A stretch of 64,000 nt of DNA, from assembly GCA_034401795.1 (NCBI GenBank), contig CM067366.1, forward strand, positions 76,765,128 to 76,829,127, read 5' to 3'. Positions 346 to 62,770 of this stretch are shown one piece after another. Source of the stretch: Chaetoderma sp. LZ-2023a. Lineage: Eukaryota; Mollusca; Caudofoveata; Chaetodermatida; Chaetodermatidae. Each line of letters opens with the position of its first letter. Positions within the stretch are counted from its first letter, which is position 1. The notes beneath the pieces were generated by a model. It saw only the letters and a list, made by a program, of their open reading frames with translations. It did not search any database and was not told the DNA's origin. The translations under genes were made by a program, and so were the position numbers.

Positions 346-456
346 TGAGAGCTTGAACAAGCTGCAGTATACCTCTGATATTTGTTTGAAATTAGTATCC
401 AGCAGATTGTAATTCGCAAAGACAATCGATCAATCTAAAGATTACGCATTTTAAAG

Positions 457-475
457 CCCCCCCCCCCCCCCCCCC
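457..475. repeat. Poly(C) run, 19 bp
   Basis: Uninterrupted C19. The aligned place in copy B (about 16733) reads CCCCCACCACCC. Confidence 0.95.
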
Positions 476-644
476 GTATAGATCCAATCTGTTACCCAAC
501 TCTATGACGTCACATTCAAGTACGTTAAATATAGGCTGAAGCAACACTAAAATGCGTAATGAATGACGTGTCGCGGTCGTTCGTAAACAGTGAACAGGCC
601 GGAAGTGTACAACTTGTATGTCCGTACAATTCAATACACATTTT

Positions 645-732
645 GTTGAATATTTTGAAAGTACTTTGACTAGGCTCTGCTGCTGCCATGGACAGCAGAA
701 GCAGCTAGTCACATTAATTTCAATTTGTTTAA
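645..732 (-). repeat. Hairpin core of the repeat family (inside copy A)
   Basis: The left arm GTTGAATATTTTGAAAGTAC continues to TGCTGCC. The right arm GCAGCTAGTCACATTAATTT is more decayed. The outer flank ATCACCTGTATAGTTACC matches the reverse complement of the CAGGTAAG flank of plus-oriented copies, which fixes this copy as minus-oriented. Confidence 0.75.
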
Positions 733-2269
733 TAGATCACCTGTATAGTTACCGTGAACTTGTGATTCTAGGAATTCACGATGCCAGCTACATGAATTGA
801 TTCCAGCACGCAGAAGAAATTATGTGGATCTTAGCTTTGAAATGAGCGGTGTACAGCTAGAAATGGCTTCCACTATTACAGGGCTAGCATCAGGTGTATC
901 CTATCTTGATTGATAACATACGTGTTCAGTCCGTGCATGCTTCATCAGTGATGGTAAATAATATGCGTCAATATGGGGATACCTGTATCGATATACCCGA
1001 AAATGCGTAGTTAAACGCCCCAACTTTCTTTACCAATTAAAATAGAGTTTACCACTATGAGCACTACAATTCAAGTACAGCATTTTTAATTACGTATACA
1101 CGTATATCCCTGGAGACCTGCGTCATGGGTTGGATTTCATTTATTTATGCAGCATGCTTCGAAAAGAGAACCTTGATAAGTGCGATATGGTAAATGAATT
1201 ATTGTTGTTAAAATGTTAATGAATGAGAATTTCTTTAATGTTATTTAAACTAAACAGGTGCGCTTTATTGATGTAATAGGACGTACTTGGCGATGTATGC
1301 ATTCTGCCGTTAACACTGCCAATGGCATAATTCCTTTTCACAGATCAACGATATGACTTCATATACTGGCGATAATTGCAATTTATTGTCGTCACAAATA
1401 GCAAATTGTCTTAACAAGCCTTTAAAGAGCATGGTTCAACCGACGAGCTTGAGAAGTAACCTTAATTAAATTTTACATGTCCAGCTCGAGCAATATTCTC
1501 GTCATAGCCATAATGGTGGGATTGTTTATGTTTTAAGCGAATCAGTTCTTCTGAAATGCGCGTGAACACAATATCTCGACATGATAAACCTAGCACGAGC
1601 CTTTGATTACCTGGACGATAGGAAATGAGATTATCTCCGTACACAGTTTCATAATGTTTACAATAGCGTACTCGTGTTTTTGTTTGAGCTAACTGTGTTC
1701 TAAGTTAATCCTTTCTTAAGGAAGACTGCCAAACGTGAAAATCTACCACGATAATGTCTACCTTGATAACCGAGGCATTCCTTCCAGTGGTACATTCTGA
1801 GAAATTGTCTTCTTCCGGCCTGCACATGGGCCATCAATAAGCAACTATTTAGATTTTCATGACCAATTCTAACCATTAAGGGTTTAACAGATCCTTGCCA
1901 AATTGCCTATGGTTGGGCTTCGCGAGACTGTTTCTGTGTTCGAGTATGTTTCATCATGCAGTGCTCTCCATCTGGATCTGGATAAATATATGCGTTGGTA
2001 AAAACATGTGCATATAACTACAGTTACATGTACTGAAATCATATAGAATATAGCAGCTTTAAAATAGTTAGTCGAGCTCTCACTTTTGGCAAAAGTAAAC
2101 CAGACATAAATGATTTAAATGTTTCTCAATTAGCATGCACTCCTATCTCTGTACATCTGTCCCGGCTACACTACAGACCTGCATAAATAAAGGTACCTTG
2201 GCAGATCATATCTATCGTCAATGAAATATACATTCCAATGCTATTGGTAAAATCGTATCAGACCACCTG

Positions 2270-2290
2270 CCCCCCCCCCCCCCCCCCCCC
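2270..2290. repeat. Poly(C) run, 21 bp
   Basis: Uninterrupted C21. The aligned place in copy B (about 18409) reads GCCCCCACTC. Confidence 0.95.
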
Positions 2291-2775
2291 TCTAACCTTG
2301 TGTCTAAAGCAGGCTGTGAAATACCATTCTTGTGACAGAGACGCAGTTCTTAAGTAAATATATCGATGAATGATTCTGCTGTTGAACATGACTTATTAGC
2401 TGTAATACCGACTAATAGCTTTCCTTGTAAATATGTCACCAGAATCCTGATTGGAAACTGTTCGTCCATTGAGATGTCGAATAACAGCACATGCCAGCTT
2501 TGAATTGGGCAATTACGTACGCTCTTGTGCTGTGTATCAGCATGTATGGGCGCATCTAGTTTGTATGCTCCATGTTAGTGAAAGGGATTTCGAGTAAAAC
2601 AGTTACTGCTCACTGATGGGGATGCTGCTAAGAACTGTGACATAGTAGATATGTCTCGTGAATTGAGTCCAATTAAAGTGATGATCATAGTCTTCAGAAG
2701 ACATGCCACATGCTAGCAGCAACATATCTAAACTGTATACGTCGAATGGTCAGGGTGAATAGTCCAACTAGTTTT

Positions 2776-2790
2776 CCCCCCCCCCCCCCC
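2776..2790. repeat. Poly(C) run, 15 bp
   Basis: Uninterrupted C15. The aligned place in copy B (about 18880) reads TCCCCCATCCGCC. Confidence 0.95.
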
Positions 2791-3270: not shown

Positions 3271-3383
<113 letters not shown>

Positions 3384-13253: not shown

Positions 13254-13390
13254 CCATAGTTGTCCATGTTCATGACAGAGCGAGATAGGACCATGGTCCA
13301 ATCTAGCTATGCCAGGAACATGGACAAATTCGTCAAATGTACCAATTGTGTGTGTTTATTAAACATAGTTTAACACATTTAATAATCACC

Positions 13391-13505
13391 AAGTTAAATT
13401 AGTTTCAAAGTATTCAACAGACACGAAACTAATTTGACTATAAGATATTGCTATTATAGTCATCAAAAGCACCCAGTCAAATTACTTTCAAAATATTCAA
13501 CAGGT
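13391..13505 (-). repeat. Double hairpin-core remnant of the repeat family
   Basis: A right arm (13391-13418, AAATTAGTTTCAAAGTATTC), a left arm (about 13424-13440, GAAACTAATTTGACT) and another right arm (13474-13503) occur in a row, as if two family cores overlapped. The flank GGTTGCCTGTATAATTACC marks minus orientation. Confidence 0.65.
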
Positions 13506-13596
13506 TGCCTGTATAATTACCTTGCAATTGGAATTCCATGAAAGCAGCGTTAAAAATATATATAAATTAATTCTAACACATGCAAATATGAGTGGA

Positions 13597-13725
13597 GGTA
13601 TCCTAGAAATGAGTTGACATAGTTAGAAATTGGAGCGACATAGCTAGAAATGGGCTGATATAGCCATAATTGTTCGGACATACCTAGAAATGGGCAGGCA
13701 TAGCTAGAAATTGGAGGGCAATGCT
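13597..13725. repeat. 20-21-bp tandem repeat, six units
   Basis: Units based on CATAGCTAGAAATGGG recur at 13602, 13623, 13644, 13664, 13684 and 13704. The same word occurs once in long copy A (about 860) and near 22630. The array is therefore a local expansion of a family-internal segment. Confidence 0.8.
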
Positions 13726-15099: not shown

Positions 15100-15440
15100 A
15101 TATTCAGGAATTACCAGGGCAACTGATGTAGTTGCCAGTGGGGCATTGCATAAATTGAACAGTTGACAAGAATTGAATATTTTGAAACTACTTTAACTGG
15201 GTGCAGTTGCTACCTAAGGGAGCAACAGCGCCCAGTGAAATTAGTTTCAAAATGTTCAACAGCATGTTTATTAAACAGCAACGAATTACAAAGACATACA
15301 ATTCATACAACGTGTCGGACTATTTGAGATTTGATGACGGTCTATATGGAACCCGTTGTGACGCAATGATTGTGCAGTCATCAGACACGCGCTGAGCTGA
15401 TCGTAATGTCATACGAGGTCAGATGATGGAGGGATACTCT
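15100..15440 (+). repeat. CRE-hairpin repeat, hairpin plus right flank
   Basis: The hairpin at 15172-15260 is well kept: GGGTGCAGTTGCTACC faces GGGAGCAACAGCGCCC, with outer arms TTGAATATTTTGAAACTA and TTAGTTTCAAAATGTTCAA. The right flank has ATGTTTATTAAA, AAGACATACAATTCATACAA and a GTCGGACTATT word typical of plus-oriented copies. Confidence 0.85.
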
Positions 15441-15984
15441 GGAAAGGTGAATTGCTAAGTTGTCTGTGCCATGTGCTGTAAACTGTAATAACCCGTCTGG
15501 CATGCACTACTATAAACTATTAGATCAGGTTCCTTCTAATACATACACGCCATCGTAGTTATGTATGTGCTCATTAATCTGCAACCCATTTGCCTGAAGA
15601 CAGTATGGGAATAGGTATTAATATGGCAAATAGTTTTGGAAATATATAGGAATATGAAACAAGACATCTCTGTTGATCTTACACATACGTCATCAATACA
15701 TTCGAAGATTCCTATACCATTCATGTAGGCATCTGCAAATGTATTGATGAAATCTGTAGAATATCAAGAAACTCCTGGATTATTTTTCTCCGTAGCTGTA
15801 CGAAAGATGCGCTAGTATATGTCATGGTTTCATAGCCAACCAAATGTCCATCAACTCTCAAGATAGTAGGAATTTATTTCAGCAAGCCTATTTATCATAC
15901 CGATGATAACACGCCATATTGTGTGGCTATTTGCGACGGTCTTGCGGCGTCTGTCCCGTATTATGGTGGCGAACACATGATTTG

Positions 15985-16626: not shown

Positions 16627-18935
16627 GCCCGTTCTCAAGCTGCAGTCAACCGCTGATATTTGCTTGACATTAGTATCCAGCAGATTGTAATTCACGTAGT
16701 CAATCAATCTGTCTAAAGACAACATATTTTAAACCCCCACCACCCTGTATCGACCCATTACTCAAATATATAACGTCACATTCAAGTACGTTAAACCTAG
16801 ACTGAAGCAGCACTCAAAATGGGTAATGAATGACATTTCGAGGTCCTTCATGAGCATAGAACAGTCCATCAAGTGTACAAATTCTATGTTTTACTATTTA
16901 ATATACATTATGTTGAATATTTTAAAACTAATTTGACTAGGCGCTGCTGCTGCTGATACGGGCAACATAAAATCTAGTCACATTAAGCTTAATATATTTA
17001 ATAGCTACTCTGCATATTTACAGTGAACTTGGGATTCTTAGAATCAAAGTTTCAACGATTTAAATTGATTCCAACACACGGAAGAAAGTATGTGGATCTT
17101 AGCTTTGAAATGGTCGGGACACCGCTAGAAATGGCTTATACTATTGCAGGTCTGACATCAGGTGTATCCTATCATGATTGATAACATATTTATTCCGTCC
17201 TTCCATGCTTCATCAGGGATGGCATGTGATATGCGCCAATATGCGGATGCATGTATCAATATACCCACCAATGCGTAGTTAAACTCCCCAACATTCCCCA
17301 CCAATTGGAATCGAGTTTACCACTAGACACTCTGCAATCCAAGAATTTTAATGTACATATAAATGTAACCTCATGAACATATTGTAAATATATTATGCTG
17401 CATATCACTGGCGACCTACGTCATGAGAGGTGAACTATAAATGTTACTGGAGATGGATTTTATTTATTTATGCAGCTGGCTTCGAGAAGAGATCCTTGAT
17501 AGGAGCGATATGGTAGATGAATTATTGTTGTTGAAATGTTGATGAATGAGACTTTCTTTTATGCCATTTAGACTAAACAGGTACGCTATGTTGGTGTAAT
17601 AGGACACACCTGGCGATATATTCATGCTGGCGATAACACAGACATGGACATAATTGCTTTTCACAGATCAACTACATGACCTCATACACTGGCAGTCAAT
17701 TGTAGTTTAGTGTTGTCACAACTCGAAAATTGGGTTAACAACTGACGGGCTTAAGCATTAACTGTGCTAAATAGGCGCCACCACAAACCATATTTGCTGA
17801 CGAAAGCCAAGCACATTACCTTGATCAACTGCCCAGAATAATGCCCGTCTAGCAATAGTCGTGCCATAGTAGTCGGATCGCATTTGTTTCAGGAGAATCT
17901 GCTCTTGTAAGTCAACATGATACACCTATTTATGTAGATAAGTAGACATCTCGTGCAATAAACACTTTGAATAGTATCTGATACAAAGGGTTTCTGTTTG
18001 TATACAGCAACTTTACATGCCACAATTATAAACTATACAAACTCATCATGTGCTATGTGTATTACCCTCACTTTGTCGTTAATAGCCACATGCATTTGAG
18101 ACAGCAAGCGGTACATATAAAATGAACGAAATGTGATAGCTTTCTATTGCACATATTCTCCAGTTTCAAGTTATTTGCATACACACACATCAGTTATCTG
18201 TGCACACGCATGTAGAATATAACTTCTTAATGTAGTCATTCAATGTATCGCCTTTGATAAAATTGAACCAGAGGCAATTGAGTTAACGTGCTCCTATCTG
18301 TGCACATATGTTTCACATGAATAAGTAAAGGCTCCTCGCCAGATCATGTTTATTTAGTCACTGATTTACACATTCCGATGCGATTACTAAAGTCTGTTAA
18401 GACCATGTGCCCCCACTCGGACCTTTTGGTTATTTCAGGCTGCCAAAAACGAATCTCGTGCTTGTTGATATGTGGTACTGATGCTGACCTCAAATTATTA
18501 ACAGTAAACCCGACTAAAAGATTGCTTTGCCTGAGGAATCCAAGTCGCTTTAGTACAACCAGTGTGTTGTGGAGAATCAATGTGAAAGAGCTGCGGCACC
18601 ATAATTGGAAACTGCTCGACGATTGAGATGTCGAATAACAGCACGCAAATTGTTTGAGTTGGACACTTACTCAGACTCCCGTTCCTTGTCAAGTTTAAGT
18701 GGTTTCTAGTAAAACCGTTCAAAGAGGGGCCATGCTGTTAAAAACTGTGCCATAGCAGACATGTCTTATGAATTGAATCCATGTGCAGCGTATTCCACTC
18801 TTCACAAAACTTGCCACCGGTTATAGGTAACAGATCTAACCATTACAAATAAGTCATGTGGACTGAACATGTCAACTATGTCCCCCATCCGCCATCGCTC
18901 CACTCGAACGTGCTAATATATCATCATATATCAAA
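16627..18935 (-). repeat. Long copy B of the CRE-hairpin dispersed repeat family
   Basis: This is colinear with 346-2885 and in the same orientation, about 230 bp shorter. It includes GTGGATCTTAGCTTTGAAAT, GATGAATTATTGTTGTTGAA and GAGATGTCGAATAACAGCAC. The hairpin core is at 16912-16990. The three places where copy A has long C runs are short C5 words here. No ORF is conserved between the two copies, so it looks non-coding. Confidence 0.8.
16912..16990 (-). repeat. Hairpin core inside long copy B
   Basis: The left arm GTTGAATATTTTAAAACTAA continues to GGCGCTGCTGCTGC. The right arm CTAGTCACATTAAGCTTAA is decayed. The left flank TTCTATGTTTTACTATTTAA is the reverse complement of the right flank of plus-oriented copies. 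Confidence 0.75.
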
Positions 18936-19539
18936 TCTATGCAATCTCTTGATACTAATCGCAGTAACTCGGGTTTCGCGTTGATTGCTGGATGTTAGCC
19001 AATTGCTGCTACGAATAGCATGTACAAACGAGACAGCTTAAATATCAATGGATGTGTGTATTGGAAGAAATGGACTCTCATGTTTTGAGAGGAGGACAAA
19101 GTCCCTCTCACGTGAGTTAGAGTTTAATATTAAATTTATCAAACAAATTTAGGAAGGTCGCATTTTGAACGAGTTTTAACTGTTTGTAACTGAGAGATTA
19201 TTAAATGAGATGTTATAAAATTGATATAGAATGACAAAGAATTCAACATTTTATTTATCACATAGGCTAATATTTCGAATCCCCACGTCAGCCCTCGCTA
19301 TTCTCTCACAATGTTACATCATTATGTTTATCACTGAGAAGTCAGAGCAATGCGAAACGAAATAAGTATAGTGATAAATTTAACATATTATTGTTTCAGC
19401 AGTAAAATTGATTTCTGATCGATTAATTTGTCATGGGTATGTATCATCATAGTGGTACATTCCACAACAATCATCGCTGCTCAGTAATGCGGCCAATCAG
19501 TATTTACGATAGATTAATCCACTTTTAGCTATGCCCCGC
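18936..19539. other. Unassigned AT-rich sequence
   Basis: I see no gene, array or clear inverted repeat. Confidence 0.4.
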
Positions 19540-19870
19540 CAATCTCTTGCTATGTTCCTCCCATTTTTTGCGCGTGTTGGGATCGATTTATACACGTTGA
19601 TGCATGTATTCCAGGAATGCCAATTTCATGGTAACTATTATGCTAACTATTATGCTAACCTGTTGAATAATTTGGAACTAACTTGACAGGGGTTATTGCT
19701 GGCTACGGCAGCAACAGCGCCGAGGCAAATTAGTTTGAAAATATACACTTTGTTTATTAAATAGTAAAGATTTAACATTCGTACACCTGACGGGGTATTC
19801 CATGTTCAGGACGGATTATTTCTGTCAATTATGATTGTGACATCAGCATAAATGTAACATAATTGATTAT
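19540..19870 (+). repeat. CRE-hairpin repeat, left flank, hairpin and right flank
   Basis: The left flank has GCGTGTTGGGATCGATTTAT. The hairpin is at 19662-19748, with GGTTATTGCTGGC facing GGCAGCAACAGCGCC. The right flank has TTTATTAAATAGTAAAGA and ACACCTGACGG. A triplicated TATGCTAAC-type word lies just before the left arm. Confidence 0.82.
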
Positions 19871-19874
19871 GGCA

Positions 19875-20479
19875 TCATATACTTGGCTGGTGGATCGGAT
19901 TAAGACATTCCACACGTAAATCTGGTTGGTGTAAGCGTAAACGCTCATGATACGGGCATAGACACCCGTATCTGTGAAGTGGGCATTCATCGTGCTCTCC
20001 TGGATTGAAGTATCCCCACCCTTCTATCTTCGATGTGGAGTTGTCCAATTGGGACAATGATACGTTTAAACCGGCGTGTATATGATGGCGTACCACACAT
20101 CTTCTACACAAAGATGTGTTACCAGTTAATTCAATTCGGTTGTCATCCAATACAGACTCTTGTAGCCGGGGCCCCGCCGTCCCATGCTAGTCCCCACTAG
20201 TGGGAACCGGAGGCCGGTTGTCACATAAGCTATCTTCCAGGTATCCTTCATTGGGTCCCTCGGTACCTGGGATGAAACGACAGTCCTGCGAGAGTCCGCG
20301 TTGAGACGACCCCTGTCCAGGCTCCTGGCCGCTCCCAGACGTCCTTTAGACATTCCAAAGTAGGGGTTGGCATCACATTGCGTGGTTTGCGAGGTCATCT
20401 TCCGCAGTTTATGGCTAAGATGATTGATCGCCTTTAGAACGTTCCTTGTAACTAGAATGGAACGATCGTTAGACAGCAA
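19875..20479 (-). other. Unassigned protein-like minus-strand ORFs
   Basis: Two overlapping minus-strand ORFs (20479-20126 and 20150-19875) read like former coding sequence. The second is Cys/His-rich (LCRRCVVRHHIHAG, then DECPLHRYGCLCPYH). I do not recognise either one. They lie downstream, on the same strand, of the LTR-like block at 21240-21500 and might be part of the same broken element. Confidence 0.3.
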
Positions 20480-21500: not shown

Positions 21501-22340
21501 AATGGTGAGATTGCATTTTGGCTTGTGTTTCATCTAGTCATCTAGGAATCTCGGGTTTTATGCGTTGCTCTCTTCGTGTCTCGATCCCACGTAGTTATCA
21601 TGAGAAAGCGTAACCTTCAAGCTTTCCAACAGTACCACACATCTGCAAACCTTTGTGAGCATGGCATTTAGCTATGAAAAAGCCGTGCAGAGATCGTGCA
21701 TACAAACTAAAAGTGTCCATCCAGTCATTGGCATTGGAAGAACACGGCCGTGCCCCATATTTTGAAAGAAACCCTGCCTATTACAGAGGTACTCCCAGTA
21801 GCATGCGGTCGTAGAGCATCCCAGGGAGGTGGATAACTGGTTCAGTGTTGGCTTGTCCTTCCCGTTACAGGATCACACTTTTCATGTTCCTTGTTTTACC
21901 AAAGCCATGCTTCCAATCACCGAGGAAGCATTTCATGAGATATGTGTTTTTCAATACTTGTTTGTTAGTAGGTTATGTTGAATTACGAGTAGCTGCGTGA
22001 TTGGAATGGCACTTCAATCCCACCAAACGTAGTATGTAATTGAGAACTGCCACTCTTAAACATTCGTAAATAATCAAGGCCATAACTCTATAACAGGTAT
22101 GCAATAATGCATGGCTTAATCGCATCGGATGCATGCCTTTATTATTGGAGTCGGTCCTCCAAGATAATGCCATTACACGTTTATGTGGCACAAGGAGACA
22201 AGAGACAAATTCCGGTGAAAACTCCAGATGTTCGACCACGACAATGATACAGCTCTAATAGATCTGTCCCTCACATATTTGATGTCATAATCAATATATC
22301 ACATGTAAACTAACGTTGCAATCAAAAGGTATAATGAACG
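21501..22340. other. Unassigned sequence
   Basis: No gene, array or strong inverted repeat is seen. Confidence 0.4.
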
Positions 22341-23040
22341 GCGTATGCATCTACGACATGAACATTTAAGTCCGGCAGTGTGTATAAATTGTATGTCATG
22401 TATGGACTTGTTATTTAATAAACAGTATGTTGAATATGGTGAAACTAATTTAATTCAGATCTGTTGCAATCATTGCCAGGAATGGCATCCAATCGGATTA
22501 ATTTCCAAACTGTCAACGACCTACGTGTAATGTTACATGGAAAATAGCATTCTAAGAATTCAGGTTTCAATGTAGCCTATATAATAGGATCCAAAACACA
22601 CAACATATGGGCGGACCTCAGCGCGAAATGGGCGGGGAATAGCTAGAAATTGGCCACTCTTTAGCATGGATAATATCGCTGTATTTGGGCAACATTTACG
22701 GCGTGATACATGCTATTTCAAATTCACCACCATCATTGGGATATATAAGCGGTTGCAGGCGATTATGAAAGGATATCCAATTTCAGTTATTGAAGGAACT
22801 TTATAATACCGATAGATACATTTGCATTGCGTTTGACTCTGAGACATCTTGTAAAATATTTTAAAGAATGGCAGAGATTTTGGTATATGTTCAATATTCT
22901 AAACCTAAACTGACTGGGTGCTGTTGCTGTCATATCATGGTGACTGTTGTATACAATTATTTCATATTCTGATTCGCCAAACGCTGTTACGGCATAATAG
23001 GATTCCCAGGCTTTGTTCATGATCTGTATTAAAACACCGG
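22341..23040 (-). repeat. Decayed CRE-hairpin repeat copies
   Basis: The flank ATTGTATGTCATGTATGG and TTATTTAATAAACAGTATGTTG precede a degenerate core (22430-22480). Then come GAATTCAGGTTTC and GGGGAATAGCTAGAAATTGG, as in long copy A after its core. A second, half-preserved arm, TGACTGGGTGCTGTTGCTG, is at 22910-22930. Confidence 0.65.
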
Positions 23041-23299
23041 ATTTGGATCAGATCATATTCCTGTGTATGTACCAATAAATCAGAGAACCGTGGATAGAAA
23101 TGGGTGAGCACGTGTTAACAGTGCTCGTGAATCGTGCGCCCTTTTGCTGAGTTGAGCGACGGTAGATTATATGACATGAACTGTAAATGAGACCCCTCTC
23201 TATTCTGACATCATTGAAAATAGCTCTGTTGTCTTCAACGTATAAAATTTAGAATACGTACAGCTCTACCCAGCGCACCGTATTACATAGTAATGGAGG

Positions 23300-23660
23300 A
23301 CTCCCGTTTAGCTTTTCCCAGGCCCACCTCTATACAAGCTCCACCCACGCGTTGACCGTGTTGGGATCGATCAATCACTGCACTCTCTGAATCTCAATTT
23401 CCAGAAAACTATAGGATGTAAGCTAGTGAATATTTTGAAACTAACTTGACTGGCTGCTGTTGCTGCCTGTCTATCTGTTTAAATATTAAAGACATACACT
23501 TCGTATAATGACAATACGTCCTTCATCAATTAAGCGGTTGTGACGAGCTTATCTACGCCATTCATGACGTCATTGGTTATGACGCCATCATGCACGTCAT
23601 GTTAGTTGACTATGACGTCGTGTGATTAATGTATAGACTGGAAATGTCCCTTATGGTAAA
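23300..23660 (+). repeat. CRE-hairpin repeat with strong CRE cluster
   Basis: The left flank has GTTGGGATCGATCAATCACT and AATTTCCAGAAAACT. Only the left hairpin arm remains (23427-23468, GAATATTTTGAAACTAACTT to TGCTGCC). The right flank contains TGACGTCA (in CATGACGTCATTGG), GACGCC, CACGTCATG and ATGACGTCGTG within about 70 bp. Confidence 0.85.
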
Positions 23661-23770
23661 TTACATAAATGCGATGTATGTGATAATTGGTATCTCAACC
23701 AGCTACCATTCAACCTCGTGAACGCAAACCACTGGATTCCTGAACGCATTTATGATTTAATCAATATTCT

Positions 23771-23860
23771 CTTGAATAATGTAAAACTAGTTTCATTGGA
23801 AGCCGTTGCAGCAGGTGGCATCAAACGCTTCTTCTCAAGGTAGTTTCAAAATATTGATCG
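23771..23860 (+). repeat. Hairpin core with loop rearrangement
   Basis: The left arm CTTGAATAATGTAAAACTAG and right arm GGTAGTTTCAAAATATTGAT bracket a scrambled centre. Confidence 0.6.
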
Positions 23861-23869
23861 GCATGTTAC

Positions 23870-25805: not shown

Positions 25806-25809
25806 CTGC

Positions 25810-25890
25810 TCAATATTTTGAAAGTAATTTGGCTGGACGCTGTTGCTGCCACGAGCGAATTAATTTCAAATTTTTCAATAGCTTACCTGT
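25810..25890 (-). repeat. Hairpin core of the repeat family
   Basis: The left arm CAATATTTTGAAAGTAATTT continues to GCTGTTGCTGCC. The right arm is GCGAATTAATTTCAAATTTT. The flank AATAGCTTACCTGTATGG shows minus orientation and preserves CAGGTAAG on the minus strand. Confidence 0.75.
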
Positions 25891-27124
25891 ATGGTTTCTG
25901 GTAATTGATACACCTGTGCTGACATACAAACTCCACAACCAGATATCATGAGGGCCATTCACATGTTTTGGCTTGTTCTACCCTCTGAAGTGTTACATCG
26001 GCAAATTTCTCCAGACTATTTATTTATTAAAGCAGTCCCGATTTTATGACGGGATCCACATTGGCACGCGCGGCAGCTACGACTGCAGTTGAAATGTTCC
26101 TGAATTCACCGTATCGGCCATCTCTGAAAAGTTTGCTTCTTAGAATGAATGCCCTGAAGAAATGTTTGTCTTCGGTATCACTTGTAATGTTTCCTTGGTA
26201 CGGTACGATAAGGAGGAACACAGTCATTCACCACATGACCATACAACTGCCACTGCTAAGATCAGCGTATACCGTATGTGGACTCATCAATGTTACTCAC
26301 AGAGAGTCTGCAAGAAACATATGACTGCTCACTGAACACGTTGCAGCTATCAAGGCTCCCCGCTGCCTTACCACTGAGTTTGCAGGGCCATTATTAGGAC
26401 AGCATAATGAGATGTACGGTACGGAACCCGTCGAAATTGTATCACCAATTATTCAAACACTTTTAAAAATAATTTAATTTAATTTATTTTGGAAACTACC
26501 AATATGTACAGTGTTTAGAAAGAAATTAATTAATTTAAGTATTTCGTAACGAGGCATATATTATTTTCAAGACCCACACATAAAAATATGTTGAATTTTA
26601 TTGAAATAACATCGTGTCTCACCTTTTGACCTTAGTGGTCTAATTATCAACGGTAATTTATTATAATACTGGGGTATGTTAGCTGGTGTCCATACATATA
26701 AATCGCATGTGATAAATTGTACCCATTTTACCGTTCTTCGCCATGTGTGGGCTTACGATCACTCGTCTTGTCGCAAAAGCTGTTTATTAAAGGTCATATA
26801 TTTGGCCTTCAAATAAACTGCTTTCCCCAGATAGGATTTATGGGGAAGCATATATAAGGACAACTTTGAAATATAAAACTGGTTATTAACTAAAATGTCC
26901 AGTTTTGACAAAATCGTGTCGATTTTCACCGGGCTATTCAACGTATTATTCTATGCTATTGCCCGCAGTGTACCTATGATTCCGATGGTACACTATCGGG
27001 TCTTAGGATATTTGCCAAGTCTCGCTGCCTTGGCCTCTTAATATGTATTTATCAACTGAATTAATAACATCAATTACGTGACGCCGCACCCCAGAAGTCG
27101 CCGCTGACAGCGAACATATGATGA
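25891..27124. other. Unassigned AT-rich sequence
   Basis: A 66-codon minus-strand ORF at 26027-26227 reads protein-like but is not recognised. Nothing else is supported. Confidence 0.35.
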
Positions 27125-31049: not shown

Positions 31050-31340
31050 TCCGCGCAGTGTCAAGAGAACAACAGGTAAGCTGTTGGATATTTTTAAACC
31101 AATTTGACTGGGTGCTGTTTCTGCGCCCAGCAACAGCGCCCAGTAAAATTAGTTTCAAGATACTTAGCAGAATGTTTGTTAAATAGTAAAAACATACAAT
31201 TCGTACAACTTGGCGGACTGTTAAGCATGTATGACGGAATTAATTAAGTCATTCAGGGAATAATTGATGTTGACATCATCATACAGTTGACGTAGTTTAT
31301 TGTGACGTTATATGATTGATCGATACGGCTAGAATCGTGA
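31050..31340 (+). repeat. CRE-hairpin repeat, near-complete hairpin
   Basis: Donor-like CAGGTAAGCTG (about 31074) leads into the hairpin at 31084-31172, with CTGGGTGCTGTTTCTGCGCC facing GCAACAGCGCCCAGTAAAAT. The right flank has TTGTTAAATAGTAAAAACAT, ACAACTTGGCGGACTGTTAA and several TGACGxxA words. Confidence 0.88.
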
Positions 31341-31455
31341 ATTAGTCTAGGTTAAGCTTGTAGGCTAGACAATTGATTTAGGGGTGATGGTGCCAGGGTT
31401 ATGGGTGGGAGAGGAGGGTATAGGAATGGGAAGAGGGAGGGGAGGATGAGGGGAT

Positions 31456-34558: not shown

Positions 34559-36359
34559 TTGTTTGTGACCTACATAAAAGACAACTATAGTCCTGGAGTT
34601 TTATGAGAATTACTCCAATCTATAGTATCCAATTTTACAAGGTTGCTAGTAAAGGTCATTACTTTATCTTGCCAGGATTGACAGCATCGAGCTCCAGGGT
34701 CAGCAGTTCCTCGCCCACTTACCTTTTGAGTCAGACTCCATGCCCACGGCTACATGAACACCATTCTGGTTCCAGCCTCTATCTATACAAAGCACCATAG
34801 ATCTCAACAATTCCTTTCTAATAACTGCCCTTTGAGCCAACCTGAATGGTCCATTATTAAAATATGAGTGTGAGGATTGGTAGTTTTTCAACCCTTGGCC
34901 ACAATGCATGGGGAACTTAGTCAATTATTGAAGCTACTTCAAGTCCAGTCACAACAAGTAGATTATCTAGCAAAATGCACAAGATGGGAGGATTTTATGT
35001 GTCTCATTCCAAATGCATAATCTATGGGAACGATTATTGGCAGAGTTCGTATAAATGTGTCAAATATAACGCTATATAGACGATGTGGCATTAGAGCACA
35101 TACACCTAGGATGAAATAGTAGGGTGCACATTCAGATTCTAAGGCTCATCTATGGGGCGGGGGGCATGTATATAGTTCCTCTACAGCTTGTTGTGGACAT
35201 GACAAAGATTTGATTATGTTGAGTTCTTTTCATGCGAAGAGGTTTCAAGAACACAGGTGGCACTGTTCGATGCACTGGTAATACGGATCTAATTATGTCT
35301 GCTAATGCATGCTTCCTCGTGGATAGAGACAACTATGACTTTCGTAACTTTGCTTCCCGATGAGTATCCGTTGAGTCAACCGGCTGATCGATCTTCTGGC
35401 TGAGTTATTTCTTCCGAAGAATCCGTTTGTCTGCGACGATTTAAATGATTATATTCTTACCGGATTACAGGTCTTTATAGCTTTCGTCTTTTCAGCTATT
35501 TTTTATTGTGGCTTTACCACATCCATAAAGTTATGGCCTACACAAGTTGTAGGCGGCCTAACTTGACATCCGATAACATCCCTCGGAAAGGGCTGTGTTC
35601 TAATTCATACACGCAATTATCATTTCGCTTAATCTCATGGGGGTTATGCCATGCATACTGTTTGCTAACGCATATAGGGGTTGTACTGGTATCTCCCGAC
35701 CATCTGGCCGGTTATCTAAGTAGAACATGAATTTTAAATCTTCCTTTGTCTGCCGTTGGATGTACTCAATTCCCAGCACACCCGATTTGTCTGCGACCCG
35801 AATTCGCTCTGCGTTCCACACACCCCTCTCTCTATCACCCCTCGCTCTTCCTCCCCATTTCTCCCTCTCCGTCTTCCTCTCTCGCTCTCTCGCTCCCGCT
35901 CTTTCCCTCTCTACCCCTCCATCCCACTCTCTATTCCTCCGTCTTGCTCTCTCTGCTACACTATTGCACATACTTGCCATGTCATTGCTAGATGTGGATA
36001 GATGCATATACTCTCGCGCTCGCATACGTGTCTTTTGAAATAATTACAGTCAAATCCAATATAATTCGTGGGCACTAATTTCCCGAATGATTCACTAAAT
36101 AAATAGTTTTCATTGCTCAAACTGACAATTTATGTCAAACGGTGTATGGAAAGCTGTGTTTACATTTGTTCTTAATGACGCTGTACAGATATCAATTTAC
36201 AACTGTGTCTATCTATAGAATACGGCATACACAAACGTCATTATCACAAACTGTTAGTCTGCAATTTCAATGTACACAGTGCGTCCCATATAAATAGCCA
36301 TTAAATTGTCATGTGGGTAATACAATATTCGATCGCAATGCAATGGCCTAATTCAAGTT
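34557..36359. other. Unassigned sequence with a CT-rich tract
   Basis: 35815-35960 is rich in CTCT and TCCC. A minus-strand AAAAG|GTAAGT donor-like word lies at 34723, ending a short open frame, but there is no convincing acceptor or homology. No gene is claimed. Confidence 0.35.
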
Positions 36360-36735
36360 TTGCTATGTTCCGCCCATCCCCAGCTAAGCTCCTCTCACAA
36401 TTTTCTCGTGTTGCATCACTCTATCTATAGACTCCATAAATCTCAGTTTCCAGAAAACTGTGCAGGTAAGTTGACGAATATTTTGAAACAAATTTTACTG
36501 GGTCTTCTTGCTTCCTATGGCAGCAAGAGCGTCCTGTCAAATTAGTATCGAAATATTCAACGGAATGTGTATGAAGCTGTAAAGACATACAACTCGTACA
36601 ACTTGACGGACTATTACGCCTTTGTGATGGACTAGATCACATCAAACATGCCGTAATTGGTTATGCCATCAGTCAACATATCAGGTAGTTGATTATGAAG
36701 TCATATGTTTAACTGGGAAACGGGATTAAAAAATG
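36360..36735 (+). repeat. CRE-hairpin repeat with consensus splice-donor word
   Basis: The left flank TATGTTCCGCCCATCC and AATCTCAGTTTCCAGAAAAC leads to TGTGCAGGTAAGTTG (about 36462-36474), a perfect CAG|GTAAGT. The hairpin is at 36471-36562. The right flank has AAAGACATACAACTCGTACA and ACTTGACGGACTATTA. Confidence 0.87.
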
Positions 36736-36739
36736 TTGA

Positions 36740-38429
36740 GCAGTTAGATTCCACTTACATAGTATGTGCTGTGAACAGTATCAAGTGATATGACATTAGC
36801 TATTTAGCATCAATAACGAGGCGAATCAATTGCGATGTTTATTAAGTATACCGGGCAGAATTTTAATTCACCTAGCCTCTCGCGGGCAAGACAATATGTA
36901 AACTGGCACTACTTGAAGATATGCACGATTACTCGAAATAACAATATGATATACAGCGTGGACAGCAAATGCATGCGCACATTCTTCCCCTGGAGAGAAT
37001 ATGAGGAATGTGAAATGAAGAGACATATCCCATAGTGCAATATGGTCAAGAAAAACCCAGCGACTTATTTTAAGCCAACCAAAGGTCAAATGTCTAAGAA
37101 TTAATCACTATCTACACTATACATTTAATACGACCTAAGATAAAGCATGTTAATTCATTCGAAATTAATTTAACTTGAAAATGTTGCTGACATGAGCCAT
37201 CATGATTTCCCTGAAGCTATGTTTGAGAATGATCAAAATAGTACTTGTATTCTTGATTTAGTATCGTAATACTGGAATCTTAGCTTTGAAGGAATTAAAT
37301 AATTTTATCCACGTGCATGTTTTCTGTCCTGCCATGTTAGTGAGATGCGCCACATTACCACCCTTCTCACGACACGGTTATTGCGTCACTATTCAATTGC
37401 CTGTTTAACTGTCGGACAGCGTTCTCTATGTCACTTGAGAAGCTGAGCTTGAACTATATTCCTCGTCTGATTCGTCTTTCGTATTGGGCGCACATGGGCA
37501 AAGACAAAGAGGCTCTAACAAGAACACATTTTCACGCTTTTTATTACATACTTGTCCACTATCTATTTAGGAAGGCTATATTGTTGCAACTCCACAGTCC
37601 AGTCAATCTAAGATAGTATTTAGCTGACAATATAGCGGCATTTCCATAATAGATTGATCAAAACATATACTCACACCTGAGATGAATATATAATTATAGT
37701 GTTAATGCTACGTCCTTGTTCTTGGTGTTTGCATTGCTGATTTCACGGGTGTCTCGTGGACATTGCGCCTATGTTGCCACTTCGATGTTTATGTTGCTAG
37801 TGTTTCCATTGTTCTATGCTTTAGAAACTCGTTAGAACAGCAACCAATATAGTGTATACCATGTTACCAGATTTCGTAGCTAATACTCTCTCTCACTTTT
37901 CTTCATAGATTCCATCTCAGGAATACCAGTGTATGCATGTATCTTCCATGCTATCTAGTGCACATATGCATGGATGAATGACTGGATAAATGGATGAGCC
38001 ATCAGAGGCTTCGTGTTTTGAATATGGGTCATTGAATTAAGGCAATTTACTCATTATACATTCGTACTAAATCACTTCTTTTATTTCAAATACTGAAATG
38101 TCTTCTCCGTATTATCTATGAATATAATTTAACCTGTCTCATTATTGCTAGCCCTATCAAGCAACCACGTAAATGTACGAAATGTAACCAAATGACACAT
38201 TTAGCTTGCATTTGTGTTAGTTGGTATATGTACAAATCAGCATACGTCCATGGGCCAGAGCACATTTAGGTATAAATCACAGGAACACGTGACGAGCTTA
38301 TTTTATAGATCCATCTATTGTCAATGAATTGATGTGACAGATTTTTCCTAGTGAGGAAACGTTTGTACATATCACACCTAAACTTGATAATGTGCATGTC
38401 AAGTGATTAATCCATGTTTACCTTTGCCC
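36740..38429. other. Unassigned sequence, probably more decayed repeat
   Basis: GGAATCTTAGCTTTGAA (about 37275) echoes the long copies. Otherwise nothing is identified. Confidence 0.35.
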
Positions 38430-38790
38430 TGTCCATGTCTAGTTAGGCTCAGCGCGTGTTTCGTGCGAGTTGGGATCGATTTTCATACTTTGAATTCCCA
38501 GAATCCATATTTTCTGGTCGCTGTATAGCTAACATGTGGAATATTTTGAAACTAATTTGACTGGGTTCTGTTGTTGCCTACCGTAAAAGAACAACCATTC
38601 AAATGTGTTTCAAACTATTCAAAAGAATGTTTGTTAAATATTAAAGACATATAACTTAAGGAACTATTAAGAGTTCATGACAGGATTAGACACGCCATTT
38701 ATGACGTGTGTTGATTGCGGCACCAGCCTACCAACAACGTAATTGGATAAGGCATCAATAATTGATCGGCAGATTCGATTCTTATATTCT
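38430..38790 (+). repeat. CRE-hairpin repeat, left flank, hairpin and right flank
   Basis: The left flank has GAGTTGGGATCGATTTTCAT. The hairpin at 38537-38622 has a good left arm GAATATTTTGAAACTAATTT and a decayed right arm. The right flank has TTGTTAAATATTAAAGACAT and ATTTATGACGTGTG. Confidence 0.83.
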
Positions 38791-39665: not shown

Positions 39666-40298
39666 GACTTGGGTACAAGTGCAGGGTATTGCATTTAAAT
39701 GCAAATGCAAATGTTTGCAAATGATTCAAATGCAAATGCAAGTGCAAATTCAGCCTAGCTCGATTGCATTTAAATGCAAATGCAAATGTTTACAATTTAT
39801 TCAAATGCAAGTGCAAAGGCAAATGCAAATGTATTTACAAATGCATTTGAATATGTGGACAAACCTCTTGTACTGAAATTCTTGAACACCGTAGTATGCG
39901 TCTGTCAACTATGCATCTGCTGGGAGTGACTATCTTTGTGGAAACATTTTGTAACATAATTATGTAGTGGGTTTTAACGTATGAGAAATGATTTTAGTTT
40001 CTTTTAATAATCACTGTTGGAAATTAAATTAATCCATTTCTTTTAGATTTACAAAGTATTTAAGCAGGATAAACAACAGCATATGCACTATAGAATATGA
40101 ATAATAGAATAGCATATTATTATTAACCCAGGAATTGCCAAACTGACCAAACACAGCTTCTGTATTGATCTTACAGAATTCCAATTTTCAGACCAAGAAA
40201 GGAATATTTTTGTCTACAAATAGAACTTTTCTATGAAAGAAATACTACTTATTTCACCTTTAAGGGGTGACCATTAGATAATTTAATTTTCAGATTTC

Positions 40299-40520
40299 TG
40301 TTGACTATTTTGAAACTAATTTCACTGATCGCGTATGTACGAGTTAAAGGGACAATACATTGGACAAGAGAATGGAGGCACCCATTCCTTACTATTTAGA
40401 AGGTGATCATGTTTATTGTACATGTTGCTGTAGATTTTCCCAGAAACAAATTAACTAAAATGTTTTGTCTTGCTAAGATCTTAACTGATTTAAACTAGAC
40501 TAATTTCAAAATATTTAATA
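40299..40520. repeat. Hairpin arms of the repeat family, spaced apart
   Basis: The left arm TTGACTATTTTGAAACTAAT (40300-40320) and right arm GACTAATTTCAAAATATTTA (about 40498-40518) are separated by about 175 bp. A further left arm, TTGAATATTTTGAAATTAAT, lies at 40683-40702. Confidence 0.6.
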
Positions 40521-40572: not shown

Positions 40573-41042
40573 CATAGAGCTACGTGTTAAGAAATAGTAA
40601 AATGTGTTAATAAATCGCAGGGAATTAAATTTCTAATTTCTCGTAACAGAAATGCCATTTTTATGGTTTAACCAATAATTTGGTTGAATATTTTGAAATT
40701 AATTTGACTGGATGCTGTGACTGCTAGGCCCCATCCTATTTTGAAGAAAAAATGCAAAATGAAAAAAATAGTGCATTTTAAAAACCCGCAAATGCATTTG
40801 AAAACTCAAATGCAAATGCAACGCTTTTTATACAAATGCAAATGCAAATACATGAGATTCAAATGCAAGTGCAAATCCAAATGCGTCAGAAATTTCATAA
40901 TTGCATTCAAATGCAAATGCAAGTGCAAATACATTCAAATGCAAATGCATTCAAATGCATTCAAATGCAAATGTATTTGCACTTGTCCCCATGTCTGATT
41001 TCATGTGTACAAGTGAAAATGCATATATATATATATATATAT

Positions 41043-46939: not shown

Positions 46940-47779
46940 GATCCCAGTCCCTGCATTGTCTATGCAGCGTAGCTAGGTCATGCACATTCTTCTAGACTCT
47001 GTCATTCTAGCTCGCTTTTAATGTCTATGTGCACTGGCCCACAGGGCCACGTGTGTTGTGGTTGGAGCATCTCAGCGCAGGCTGTTTCGTACCTGGCGTC
47101 AAGTGATCTGCGCTACAGCACACAGCAAGATATTTTTCACACATGTCAAAAAGTATCATACACTTGTAGATATTTGGTTTTCATAGCATGAATGAAAAAG
47201 CCCGGTCTACAATCTTACGGCATACAGAAACAATCTGCGGAATCGGTCAGAAATGTAATTTGTCAACACAGGAAGCTCTAATGTGCACCTGTTACGTCGA
47301 TCTAAATTACTCCAGTCACAAGATGTCAATCGACTTTGAACAAGTTCAGCATACATTTGGTTTGGTTATAGACCACCTGTGTGTACTTAGATAATGCATG
47401 TGGCAGTGTGTTATGTAGCATAAATGGTTGTTGATCAACACCACTATGCGCGCATTATGTCTCTTTTATCACTGGAGGAGATTTTTTTTATTAGGAATAG
47501 ATGTGGGAGGTATTTCTAGGCACTACAGTAGTTAGTGATGAAGGAATGTTGTTATCATAGTCATTTCTTATAGAACACGTTCTTTTAGGAGGACGACTTA
47601 AGAATGTGTTTATTTACTCTATATATTTGTTATGATAAGCATTGCCACGACAAACAGCGCCACTGTAATAAAGAATTGTATTGCATTAAATCATTAGTGA
47701 CATTAAATGATAGTATTTTTTGATAATCATGTATTAATTAATGTGTTGTGGAAGATCACTGTGTAAGCCATACACATGT
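46940..47779. other. Unassigned sequence
   Basis: A short hairpin, TGGCCC/GGGCCA, lies at about 47036-47050. No gene is recognised. Confidence 0.4.
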
Positions 47780-47865
47780 TGGATTCTTTGAAAGAAATTT
47801 AACTGAAACTCCTTGGATGCATAGTCACCAATAACATTCAGTCAGGATGTTTTCAAAATATTCGG
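47780..47865. repeat. Decayed hairpin core of the repeat family
   Basis: TTCTTTGAAAGAAATTTAACTG and AACATTCAGTCAGGATGTTT, then TCAAAATATTC, keep the arm order but much of the centre is lost. Confidence 0.5.
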
Positions 47866-53605: not shown

Positions 53606-54025
53606 CTTTACATTAAGGATAAAGATATAAGTATACAACACATATTATTCTGAATAAAATATAAACATGCTTCACAACTGATACATACATTTATAATTAC
53701 CATACATCATATACATGCTGCAATGTGACCTGGGTGTACCTAATGAACCTTGAAGCATAAAACTAATCGGACACCATTGTGCCACGTATTGGTTAAATAA
53801 TGCAGGTGGTTATGTGGTAGCGAAATTATGTCTCCTAGTACCCTTTCTGCCGGCGAGTAACTCTTTAATACTTCGAGCACCTCAATTTTCATGCAGCCAT
53901 ACAGGTAAGCTGTTTAACCCTTTCAGCAATGGATTCCACACATCTGCTTTTCACGGCAACCATACCAAACTCTTGATTATTTTGAAATTAACTTGACTGG
54001 AAGCTCTTAATTCTTGTTGAAATAA

Positions 54026-58338: not shown

Positions 58339-58378
<40 letters not shown>

Positions 58379-60154: not shown

Positions 60155-60600
60155 TGTGTATCACTGATGCTGTACAACTGTAACAGCTGGGCATCTCCCA
60201 AGGCAGTTCTAGATACGCTGCATGCCTGTCACCGCAGACACCTTCGTACTATAAATCAACATCGCTGGCCGGACAGCATAATCTATAACGGCAGGGTATA
60301 CACTCTACGCAATGCGGTCCCACTGTGAGTGAGGTGGCCCAACAAAGACCGGCTATGTTTGGCCATTTTCAGCGAATGCCACAAAACACCCCTCCACAGA
60401 AAGCCTTGGAACGCTCTTGACTAGGGGTCAACATCTACAAAACTTGAAGAGGACGCCACTGCGCAAACCTGCTACTTGTGCTACGTGCCGATCTAAAAGA
60501 CTGCGAACTGCGTACATGGATGAGAAACAGGAACTCAAGGGAGCGAAGGAATCTCGCTGAGAACAAGGCGCGGTGGTCAAAGAAAAAGGACTGATTGCAT
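60155..60600 (+). mobile_element. 3' part of LINE family 2
   Basis: The plus strand reads LYNCNSWASPKAVLDTLHAC, then HRRHLRTINQHRWPDS, and later a decayed version of the GHVLRM/TPAQRAL block. This copy keeps the HRWPDS segment that the longer copy at 49203-50835 has lost. Several frame changes are present. Confidence 0.78.
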
Positions 60601-60788
60601 GTGTAGGACGTTTGCAAACTCCTGCAGCCACAGATCACGGTGCACATGGCAGACAATATATTAGTACATAACCACATGCATACTTCTTGATGGAAGTTGG
60701 ATTGCATACTATGGTTCCCATTTACGTTTAAGGAATGTGATTAGAAAGTATATTATTAGCCGAAGCTATTCCGTATGGCAGCTTTAAA

Positions 60789-61230
60789 CATGTAGCGTAG
60801 CCAGGGGAGGGATGGCAGGGGGAGCACTCGCTCCCCCTGGACCAATCTTCCCAAATGTGGCGCCTAAATCTTGTCCGTACCACATACACGTTTATGGACG
60901 TCCCAACTCCCAAGCCACCTTTAACAAGTTAATCTACATTGAAAAGTATAACTATTTGAATTTCCAAGGCTGTTAATGTCTTCTTGTCGTGCTCGTTCAC
61001 CGCTATGTTGAGACTTTTTGTTTGAGTTACGCTACATCAAGACAAAGAATAGTAGGATACATGCTACGTTCTAGGTAGAATAAAATAATTGACAACGCTG
61101 GGATGCTATTTTCCCTTTATTAAATACATTTAAACAGATTGCGGGGTGGCGCCTTTTAAGTCTTCATTCAAGCTGGGTGGCGCTTTTTAGACCTCGCTCC
61201 CCCTGATGTGAAAACTTGGCTACGCCACTG
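60789..61230. mobile_element. hAT-type miniature element (442 bp)
   Basis: The right end, read inward, is CAGTGGCGTAGCCAAGTTTT, then CACATCAGGGGGAGCGAGG. The left end, CATGTAGCGTAGCCAGGGGA followed by GGCAGGGGGAGC, is its counterpart. CAGTGGCGTAGCC is a common hAT terminus. Candidate target duplications are CTTTAAAC (60782-60789) and GTTTAAAC (61231-61238), 7 of 8 matching. No transposase is encoded. Confidence 0.78.
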
Positions 61231-61512
61231 GTTTAAACCAGTCGCCAGTTAGAGTAAGATGAGTACGCAGTCATTACTTTATTACCATTCATGACTAAAT
61301 AGATTCACCTCAGTCATGCTATCCGTGTTATGTTTCACGTTCATTCCGATAATAAATTTTGAGCACGACTTCGACCTTGATTACATCTACTGTTGTTTCC
61401 GATAGCAACTTATTTAACCACTCTTGTGTCACCTTAGCCCTTTAATGGTCAAGTTTGTAAAAAAACCGGTCTTGAGAAATGTCCATTTGCAGGCTAAGAG
61501 AAGGATAGTTTT

Positions 61513-61566
61513 GAAAATGTGCCACTGGGATGACTGGCTCGGTTATCGAGCCAGTCATTCCAGTGG
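61513..61566. repeat. Strong 20-bp-arm hairpin
   Basis: CCACTGGGATGACTGGCTCG, a 5-nt loop GTTAT, then CGAGCCAGTCATTCCAGTGG. The arms have one mismatch that would be G.U in RNA. A decayed relative lies at 62010-62080. Confidence 0.9.
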
Positions 61567-62490
61567 TAAATTGTCAAAAATTATCTTATTATTGGTCACT
61601 GGGTAAGCAGAAATTTTAATTTTCTTGACCATTACACATTTGATGAATGTCCATTTGGTAGATAACAGAAATCTTTTTTTTTTGTAAATGTTCGTTATAA
61701 ATTTACATTAATACTCTTTTTGGCTGCAAAAATTAAAACTTCCTTGAAAAGTATTGGAAATTAAATGGTTACTTGAAAGAAATAGTATTTTGAGCGCTGT
61801 AATACGTTGTTGACACAAGAGAGGTTAATAACACTATGTTCACCCTCTTGAAATATTCGTCAATATATGTGCCCATGGTTAGCTAAATCCAGAGACAGTT
61901 AACTAGAGACGCTACAAATTAACATTATTTGGTACGCTATTCAAGGGCGACAAATATGCCATATAACGTCTCACATTATCGCGCCTCATCCAATCCATGA
62001 AAGAAGACTATTTTCTTACAATTTACCACTGGAGTGTCTGGTTACCGATTCAGCCATTTCAGTGTTACATTGCCAAAATAGTCTCTTGATCCTGTAAATG
62101 AATGGTTCTCAAAACAACTGCAGAAGTCGTATTTAGCCAGTTTGGTTGGGAGATGGTTAAATAGTACAATGTTAAGTTAACCACGGCAAACTAACCGATA
62201 TTGTCAGTAGTACGGCGTGTCGAGCCTCTACGTATCGGTCTCCGCTAAAGCATAGTTTGCATCTGCTCGGACCCTCGGGACATGTGACAGGTATTTGGAA
62301 GAAGGGTGGCGTACACAGCTCCTCGGGCTTATCCGAGCGTAATGCAACGCGGTCTTTTGTCAGTCAGTGTCAGAACTGAACGACCTAAAGCAGTTATCTC
62401 CTTACTCTGAGATTTACCGTAAATAATGTCATAATATCGCAATAATATTGTTTACCCGTTTTGGGATGGATCGAACCCCAAGCACAAGGT
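61567..62490. other. Unassigned sequence with a second copy of the hairpin
   Basis: 62017-62070 (TTTACCACTGGAGTGTCTGG, then CAGCCATTTCAGTGTTACAT) resembles the reverse complement of the hairpin at 61513-61566 with its flank AATTTACCACTGG. No gene is recognised. Confidence 0.5.
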
Positions 62491-62494
62491 AGCT

Positions 62495-62770
62495 ATACAG
62501 ATATGCTGGTGAATATCTTTAATATAAGTTAACTGTGTGTTGGGTGGTGTTACTGCATATGGCAGCAATAGCGCCAGTTAAATTATTTTCAAAATGTCCA
62601 ACCGAATGTTTATTTAATATTAGAGACACGGACTAGTTAATGTTCCTGGCGAACCTAGATGCGTCAGTCATATACATTTTGATCGTCACGTCAGAGTACA
62701 TGGGACTTAATTGAGTATGACGTCATATACATATTCATCAATTGCGATATAAATATGCAATAGATGTTTT
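62495..62770 (+). repeat. CRE-hairpin repeat
   Basis: The hairpin at 62509-62603 has GGTGGTGTTACTGCATATGG and CAGCAATAGCGCCAGTTAAA. The right flank has ATGTTTATTTAATATTAGAG, GATCGTCACGTCAGAG and GAGTATGACGTCATATACAT, which includes a perfect TGACGTCA. Confidence 0.85.

Follow-up and report, generated by a model that had tools for sequence, protein, structure and literature searches.

What is the hairpin-forming sequence that recurs through a 64,000-nucleotide stretch of the genome of the mollusc Chaetoderma sp. LZ-2023a (contig 8, 76,765,128-76,829,127; this whole stretch is called the window below)? A sequence-only reading of the window had listed about 18 sites and had taken the hairpin and its conserved flanks for one mobile or replicating unit. 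We found that at least two families of miniature inverted-repeat transposable elements (MITEs) with different ends, one AT-flanked (family M) and one TTAA-ended (family P), appear to carry one related hairpin core. The claim of mobility stands, based on sharp ends, terminal inverted repeats (TIRs) and an AT duplication. The claim of one unit is not supported, because two or more families that end differently contain the core. We think it probable that M is a MITE mobilized by ISL2EU-type machinery with duplication of AT, that its 158-bp hairpin core is homologous to part of P, and that the composite was then amplified.

The core is abundant in the window and in the genome. The 20-mer TTGAATATTTTGAAACTAAT from the core had 22 matches in the window on both strands (up to three mismatches), where 0.03 are expected; 22 matches were reached in none of 100 shuffles. 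Fourteen of the listed sites contain this 20-mer at that threshold; the remaining four (22889, 23772, 47780 and 62509) were recovered by a profile made from copies outside the window, so that all 18 match the profile. Genome-wide (2,438,752,110 bases in 2753 contigs), the 20-mer had 299,728 forward and 299,541 reverse matches with up to two mismatches, compared to 12 and 9 for reversed-pattern controls. A 35-mer from the left end of family M had 26,157 and 25,963 matches (52,120 in all, up to three mismatches) and none in the controls. These copy numbers are pattern matches. A hairpin may be counted at each of its two arms, and cores of family P, too, are matched by the 20-mer and the profile. 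The family profile covered 4495 of the 64,000 bases of the window (7.0%). In 11 unselected 10-kb stretches it covered 5331 of 105,000 bases (105 kb without N, with cores of other families counted too), which gives an estimate of 5% of the genome. Coverage was uneven, with none in five of the 11 stretches and 21% in one. An Rfam scan of the window gave no matches at the gathering score and 10 weak ones at E≤1, none of them over the repeat copies. An exact 29-mer had no matches in viral and prokaryote collections, and a search of the open-licence literature by words, not by sequence, returned no description that we recognized as family M.

We derived the anatomy of family M from 10 copies in the window and 27 copies elsewhere. 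The consensus is ~393 bp, has TIRs GGACCTTTCCAG...CTGGAAAGGTCC, and consists of the left TIR plus ~130 bp, a 93-bp hairpin region, ~170 bp, and the right TIR. In the alignment, the 27 copies from elsewhere terminate at AATGGACC...GGTCCATT. Shared boundaries are thus present beyond the hairpin, at a distance of ~130 bp on one side and ~170 bp on the other; a lack of boundaries beyond the core had been named as grounds for giving up the idea of an element. The earlier description of the flanks was right in that they are conserved: ten window copies match a ~244-bp profile running rightward from the hairpin, and the element reaches ~130 bp leftward as well. Copies in opposite orientations had been described as exact reverse complements in their flanks, and this was not borne out; window copies are about 66-82% identical over stretches of at least 90 bp. 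Copies with both ends are 336-423 bp long (n = 26). The TIRs begin GGACC... or, in a subset, GGAGG..., and the type of the two ends agrees in 16 of these 26 copies (8 CCTTT, 8 GGAAT), disagrees in four and is unclear in six. No coding frame was seen in the element, as had been noted from the sequence. Family M is thus short and non-coding, with TIRs, a high copy number and a target site duplication, all of which are features of MITEs. Divergence from the consensus has a median of 0.176 substitutions per site (Kimura two-parameter distance, range 0.102-0.441, n = 27); the sampled copies are therefore mostly old and in decay. A 179-bp AT element (L075) that we considered as a form of M without the core looks like a deletion form instead. 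The right half of the consensus contains two TGACGTCA motifs, which we take to be palindromic CRE (cyclic AMP response element) sites. At the copy number of M, these motifs could matter for regulation.

Several results support insertion of M at A-AT-T with duplication of AT. ATGG is preceded by A in 21 of the 26 copies that have both ends, and CCAT is followed by T in 24; the next position outward on the left is C or T in 22. A copy in a tandem array reads GCTCA-AT-element-AT-TGTGACTT, and neighboring units of the array read GCTCAATTGTGACTT, which corresponds to an empty site GCTCA-AT-TGTGACTT. One ISL2EU element carries this insertion in two of its copies (C4:80.19 and C1:107.17 Mb), which were counted as one event. 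We compared a second nested copy (L014_8851), which lies within a diverged hairpin, to nine distinct related hairpin stretches, and five of the nine comparisons showed exactly two extra bases at the junction; one of these five is with the other arm of the host hairpin itself. The right half of family M is itself a frequent insertion target. The filled right junction AAACTGGAAAGGTCCATTGATTATGACG had 278 and 287 matches in the genome (565), the version without the shared AT had one and none, and reversed controls had none. At 20 loci with a perfect junction, seven (six independent) have clear family sequence on the left side ending ...TA before the AT, as judged by eye (L066, L069, L075-L078 and L085; L069 and L085 look like a single event). 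A looser left-end pattern that includes the target sequence placed the left end at 13 of the 20. Ends and target duplications had been suggested as a check on transposition, and we found sharp boundaries and, at nested sites, the AT duplication. Assignment to PIF/Harbinger proper, with its 3-bp TWA duplication, was rejected; there was no clear 3-bp excess, and the nested sites fit 2 bp. A search of 39 joined flanks for empty sites within the sampled DNA gave few usable ones, and a profile search for M nested in M returned none.

The same core is found outside family M. We examined 125 hairpins from 19 loci (L009-L027) and the window. This sample is not random, since L009-L016 were selected for perfect core matches. 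Forty-nine hairpins had M flanks on both sides, 56 had none, and 20 had one or an odd arrangement. The flankless hairpins include several groups, several of which share sequence beyond the arms. One of the groups is family P, which is 175-215 bp long with TTAACCCTTTCACC ends; it begins TTAACCCTTTCACCGATGAATTCC and ends GGGATTTGTCGGTGAAAGGGTTAA. A hairpin arm lies 21-47 nt inside 22 of 26 P end matches (these include the near-duplicate loci L086/L087 and L053/L056), compared to 85 of 1458 random 95-mers. Six complete P copies (175-215 bp) were found, five with an arm and four with exact TTAA at both ends; reversed DNA gave none. Another pair of end patterns gave five complete copies, four with an arm, and this set overlaps only partially with the six. 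TTAA-type ends were present on both sides of eight of 37 flankless hairpins, compared to 57 of 1951 random stretches; 29 of the 37 were without them. The consensus sequences of M and P (the latter assembled by eye from the listed copies) align without gaps over 158 bp, hairpin included. The ~40 bp to the left of the hairpin gave an alignment score of 42 between M and P, and the maximum in 500 shuffles was 26.

Another group of hairpins, g1, is a ~210-bp palindromic element (L009:4983, L009:7971, L017:8678, L017:9315 and L020:7955) with TTAACCCTTA / TTAACCCTTACC ends. Four of the five copies have TTAACCCTTACCACTCTGATG-like ends, and the hairpin resembles the M core only loosely. Three other hairpins (group g2; L011:2928, L018:1191 and L013:6151) contain GACTGAAAGTTGTTGGTGGC and have flanks of their own with unclear ends. 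Iterated profiles for groups g1-g3 were dropped, as they drifted into family M.

Pairing between the arms is largely retained in the better-kept hairpins. The consensus hairpin has 45 pairs and a 3-base loop. The sequence-only reading had the arms pairing over 40-58 bp, which holds for the consensus and nearly holds for the best-kept hairpin in the window (15173-15262; 38 pairs, -50.9 kcal/mol, z -10.7). It does not hold for most copies, which are decayed; when 120 nt starting from the left arm were folded, 14 of the 18 window sites did not beat the average of 200 random stretches by as much as one standard deviation. In 51 nearly complete hairpins from the sample of 125 (36 with M flanks and 15 without), 87.0% of cells pair, and sliding the partner by one column reduced pairing to 42.9-44.5%. 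Changes on both sides were found at 30 of the 45 pairs, compared to 14.7 in shuffles, and 30 was reached in none of 500; relatedness among the hairpins inflates these counts. The consensus sequences of M and of the flankless hairpins also differ by paired changes (GGGTGC/GCGCCC versus GGAAGC/GCTTCC). The changes in both arms probably have one of two causes, which the data do not tell apart: in a fold-back, one arm may serve to repair the other, or pairing may be under selection.

We also looked for a source of transposase. Elements of the ISL2EU group, within the PHIS superfamily, are described in excerpts of one report as having an AT target duplication, a TIR beginning with GG and an AT-rich target (PMC4482050). 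M resembles them in each respect and differs in having no coding frame. A search of the genome gave at least 150 matches to DDE_Tnp_4 (150 of 2519 candidates scored) and at least 67 to YqaJ (150 of 158 candidates scored). At least 16 pairs of the two genes lie within 4 kb of each other, picked by eye and then checked, and 14 of these pairs face each other. Among the matches listed, the pairs are on C1, C2, C4, C5, C8, C9, C11, C12, C13, C15 and C16. Several pairs have flanks that match at 96-99% from one locus to another, suggesting that ISL2EU elements were active here fairly recently. Because M has the AT duplication and GG ends, and because ISL2EU genes are present in the same genome, we infer that machinery of the ISL2EU group moved M.

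The search for a parent covered the sides of nine of the 16 gene pairs and four further stretches. ISL2EU family C (contigs 5 and 9) has other ends, GTATACACG..., judged from where its two copies stop matching, and is excluded as the parent. The M copies in L051, L052 and L057, considered as ends of ISL2EU family A, are insertions inside that family. A left-half element with a foreign interior (L028/L035) is part of a repeat of more than 5 kb. In L086, at most a candidate parent, no stop-to-stop frame exceeds 101 codons. A further repeat, ATTCCAGT...TAGTCTTCTC...TGCAAATGGACATTT, occurs in ISL2EU flanks and inside L041 (L041, L050, L053, L056, L058 and L065).

A number of observations weigh against the reading that we favor. 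No autonomous element with M ends was found among the ISL2EU pairs examined, and none of the at least 16 pairs in the genome was tied to M ends. ISL2EU families A and B extend past the sampled DNA, and four other pairs gave no ends. The evidence for the duplication is also uneven, and a 2-bp duplication is short. Four of the nine comparisons with L014_8851 lacked exactly two extra bases (one shows six, and three align otherwise), L041 compared to L016 has CT where AT is expected, and the comparisons of L041 with L014 and of L011 with L002 gave no clean answer. At the 20 junction loci, the left side was only partly recognizable in three (L070-L072) and was not recognizable, or could not be told, in 10. 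The looser left-end pattern contains ...GTAATGGA and is biased toward such ends; a pattern of the TIR only gave left ends at six of the 20, with clear family sequence outside in two (L076 and L077). In plain flanks, tested for duplications of 2-8 bp, those of 3 bp or more were not clearly above chance (3 bp, 9 versus 7.1; 4 bp, 2 versus 0.4), and AT there is inseparable from the TIR. Identity between the two TIRs of a copy averaged 8.54 of 14, compared to 7.73 for re-paired copies, with a maximum of 8.77 in 1000 shuffles. Lastly, the flank to the right of the hairpin gave a score of 20 between M and P, where shuffles had a mean of 18.4 and a maximum of 30.

The many hairpins that lack recognized M flanks (56 of 125) could mean that the core is mobile by itself, as a ~90-bp palindromic MITE, and that the flanks are merely co-duplicated neighbors. 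We consider this unlikely. The same flanks occur on both sides of 49 hairpins and have sharp TIR ends further out, several of the flankless groups share sequence beyond the arms, and an arm lies inside most P ends (22 of 26). No sharp ends were seen at the arm tips CTGTTGAATA...TATTCAACAG, for which no dedicated search was made. It also seems quite unlikely that the cores of M and P are alike by convergence, or simply as AT-rich palindromes, and not by descent. The loose similarity of the g1 hairpin would fit convergence, as would the sequence to the right of the right arm, where the likeness of M and P does not exceed that of shuffles; the ungapped alignment over 158 bp and the left-flank score well above all shuffles argue for descent.

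Other classes of element account less well for family M. It is short, very abundant and without a visible coding frame, as expected of a short interspersed element (SINE) or a Helitron-type repeat, and GATCGATC resembles part of what we take to be a B box, which we counted for a SINE. Such an origin is extremely improbable given the inverted ends and the 2-bp duplication, the alignment having no 3' tail and no CTRR end, and Rfam having no match over the window copies. Helitrons have TC...CTRR ends and no TIR, and the M alignment does not show this arrangement. The A and T that flank M resemble insertion between A and T with no duplication, as in MITEs of the Spy group (PHIS superfamily, target AAATTT), and Spy occurs in another mollusc, an oyster (PMC11304231). 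We regard membership in this group as very unlikely, since the empty sites hold two bases beyond what a model with no duplication allows, the junction with the shared AT outnumbers the one without it by 565 to 1, and the A is preceded by C or T, not by another A, in 22 of 26 copies.

The clear nearest precedent for M and P is the CMITE group of corals. As described in sections of Wang et al. (2010, PMC2872659), CMITEs are MITE families with different TIRs and a highly conserved internal region in common. They are TTAA elements of ~100 bp, mostly with CCCTTT ends, with about 1600 copies estimated in one coral; one of them, CMITE-IN, is a new element made when one MITE inserted into another. The families described here are similar, by description, in that the common core is more conserved than the ends and that P has TTAA/CCCTTT ends. 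CMITEs are all TTAA elements; here, one carrier (M) duplicates AT and has GG ends, the common core folds into a hairpin whose arms are 45 bp long, and there are hundreds of thousands of core matches. If it holds, the addition is a core found across target-site classes (AT, shown by nested sites, and TTAA, judged only from the ends) and in far higher numbers. P is like piggyBac/Kolobok-like MITEs in having TTAA at both ends and TIRs beginning CCCTTT (group names partly after PMC2872659); its class is assigned from the ends, the TTAA duplication is putative, and no transposase, for which no search was made, is linked to it. Domains common to otherwise different families are also known from SINEs, and the highly conserved SINE domain V is reported, in the title of PMC6887750, to be carried by a DNA transposon as well. 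In the present case, DNA MITEs carry the domain, which forms a long hairpin.

In the simplest history, an ISL2EU-type MITE would have received an insertion of a P-like element, or captured one, and the composite would then have been amplified. The core would be derived from, or common to, TTAA-type P elements by nesting, followed by loss of the inner P ends; we infer this because the homology stops inside the P ends. An ISL2EU-type transposase, acting in trans, may recognize the GGACC ends of M and move the element by cut and paste into AATT, where the AT duplication is supported. The fold-back arms could thereafter keep each other similar.

The 18 sites in the window include 11 with the flanks of the long element, one (53973) with a TTAA-type end, and six with little beyond the core (22889, 23772, 25810, 40300, 40683 and 47780). 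At least five sites are one-armed (22889, 23427, 40300, 40683 and 53973). Nearly complete copies of M lie at 481..876 (minus strand, 187.7 bits, positions 2-386 of the 393-position model), 16755..17138 (minus, 160.6 bits, model 8-378), 19509..19901 (plus, 248.2 bits, model 2-386), 22263..22658 (minus, 162.7 bits, model 6-379), 36343..36726 (plus, model 2-385; at 266.8 bits the top score in the window) and 38403..38781 (plus, 187.2 bits, model 3-387). The copy at 23292..23649 (plus, 212.2 bits, model 1-391) has one hairpin arm deleted in the alignment. Two adjacent partial copies (13295-13420 and 13425-13657; 29.0 and 108.5 bits) make up 13295..13657 on the minus strand. Of the less complete plus-strand copies, 15173..15452 (190.0 bits) is without the left part and contains the best-kept hairpin, 31054..31341 (214.7 bits, model 102-392) is without the outer left part, and 62452..62729 (140.1 bits, model 61-366) is without both ends. 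Lone arms are found on the plus strand at 22888..22933 (21.7 bits, flanks not recognized), 40298..40333 (19.7 bits) and 40683..40730 (31.4 bits). Three sites on the minus strand are hairpin cores: 23742..23864 with almost no recognizable flank (M 54.7 bits, model 128-250; P 42.8 bits over 23726-23862), 25806..25911 with a little left flank (M 61.3 bits, model 100-223; P 40.7 bits), and 47777..47864, which is decayed and without flanks (M 16.6 bits; P 23.3 bits over 47763-47869). The TTAA-type site, 53915..54008 (plus, 41.1 bits, P positions 2-98), has the left end TTAACCCTTTCAGCAATGGATTCC, found as an end match, and the left arm of family P; it ends shortly before an ATCT microsatellite that starts at 54026.

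The window also contains other repeats. A direct repeat of 1.1 kb (358-1417 and 16636-17741, 75.7% identical) is larger than the M copies that it encloses. Two Tc1-like elements (9629-11246 and 54811-56466) are 96% identical over 1.66 kb and have 24-bp inverted ends; the frame tested in the first has DDE_3 and HTH_Tnp_Tc3_2 domains, and the one tested in the second has helix-turn-helix (HTH) domains. Reverse transcriptase frames lie at 41853-43460 and 49882-50877, both on the minus strand. The first, with RVT_1 and RNase H, is closest to a JGI protein (89%) and, among named ones, to proteins from Littorina saxatilis (65%) and Batillaria (63%). Units of ~20-25 bp that resemble CTATGCTATACTAGTC make up a 1.6-kb array at 28728-30303, which also shows a higher-order repeat of 440 bp.

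Even if it is ordinary, this family is estimated to occupy a few per cent of a large genome. The ends normally define a MITE family, and the interior is expected to be arbitrary. A structured core common to two differently ended families would make it testable whether the interior of a MITE contributes to its success. As a tentative and rather doubtful extension, the ~158-bp core might be a transferable module, carried by MITEs of unrelated transposases (AT, TTAA and perhaps more), with its pairing kept and with a part in the amplification to ~5% of the genome. If this were true, the core would be to DNA transposons what the conserved central domains are to SINEs. A chromosome-scale mollusc assembly with hundreds of thousands of core matches offers material with which to date the carriers and find the founding chimera.

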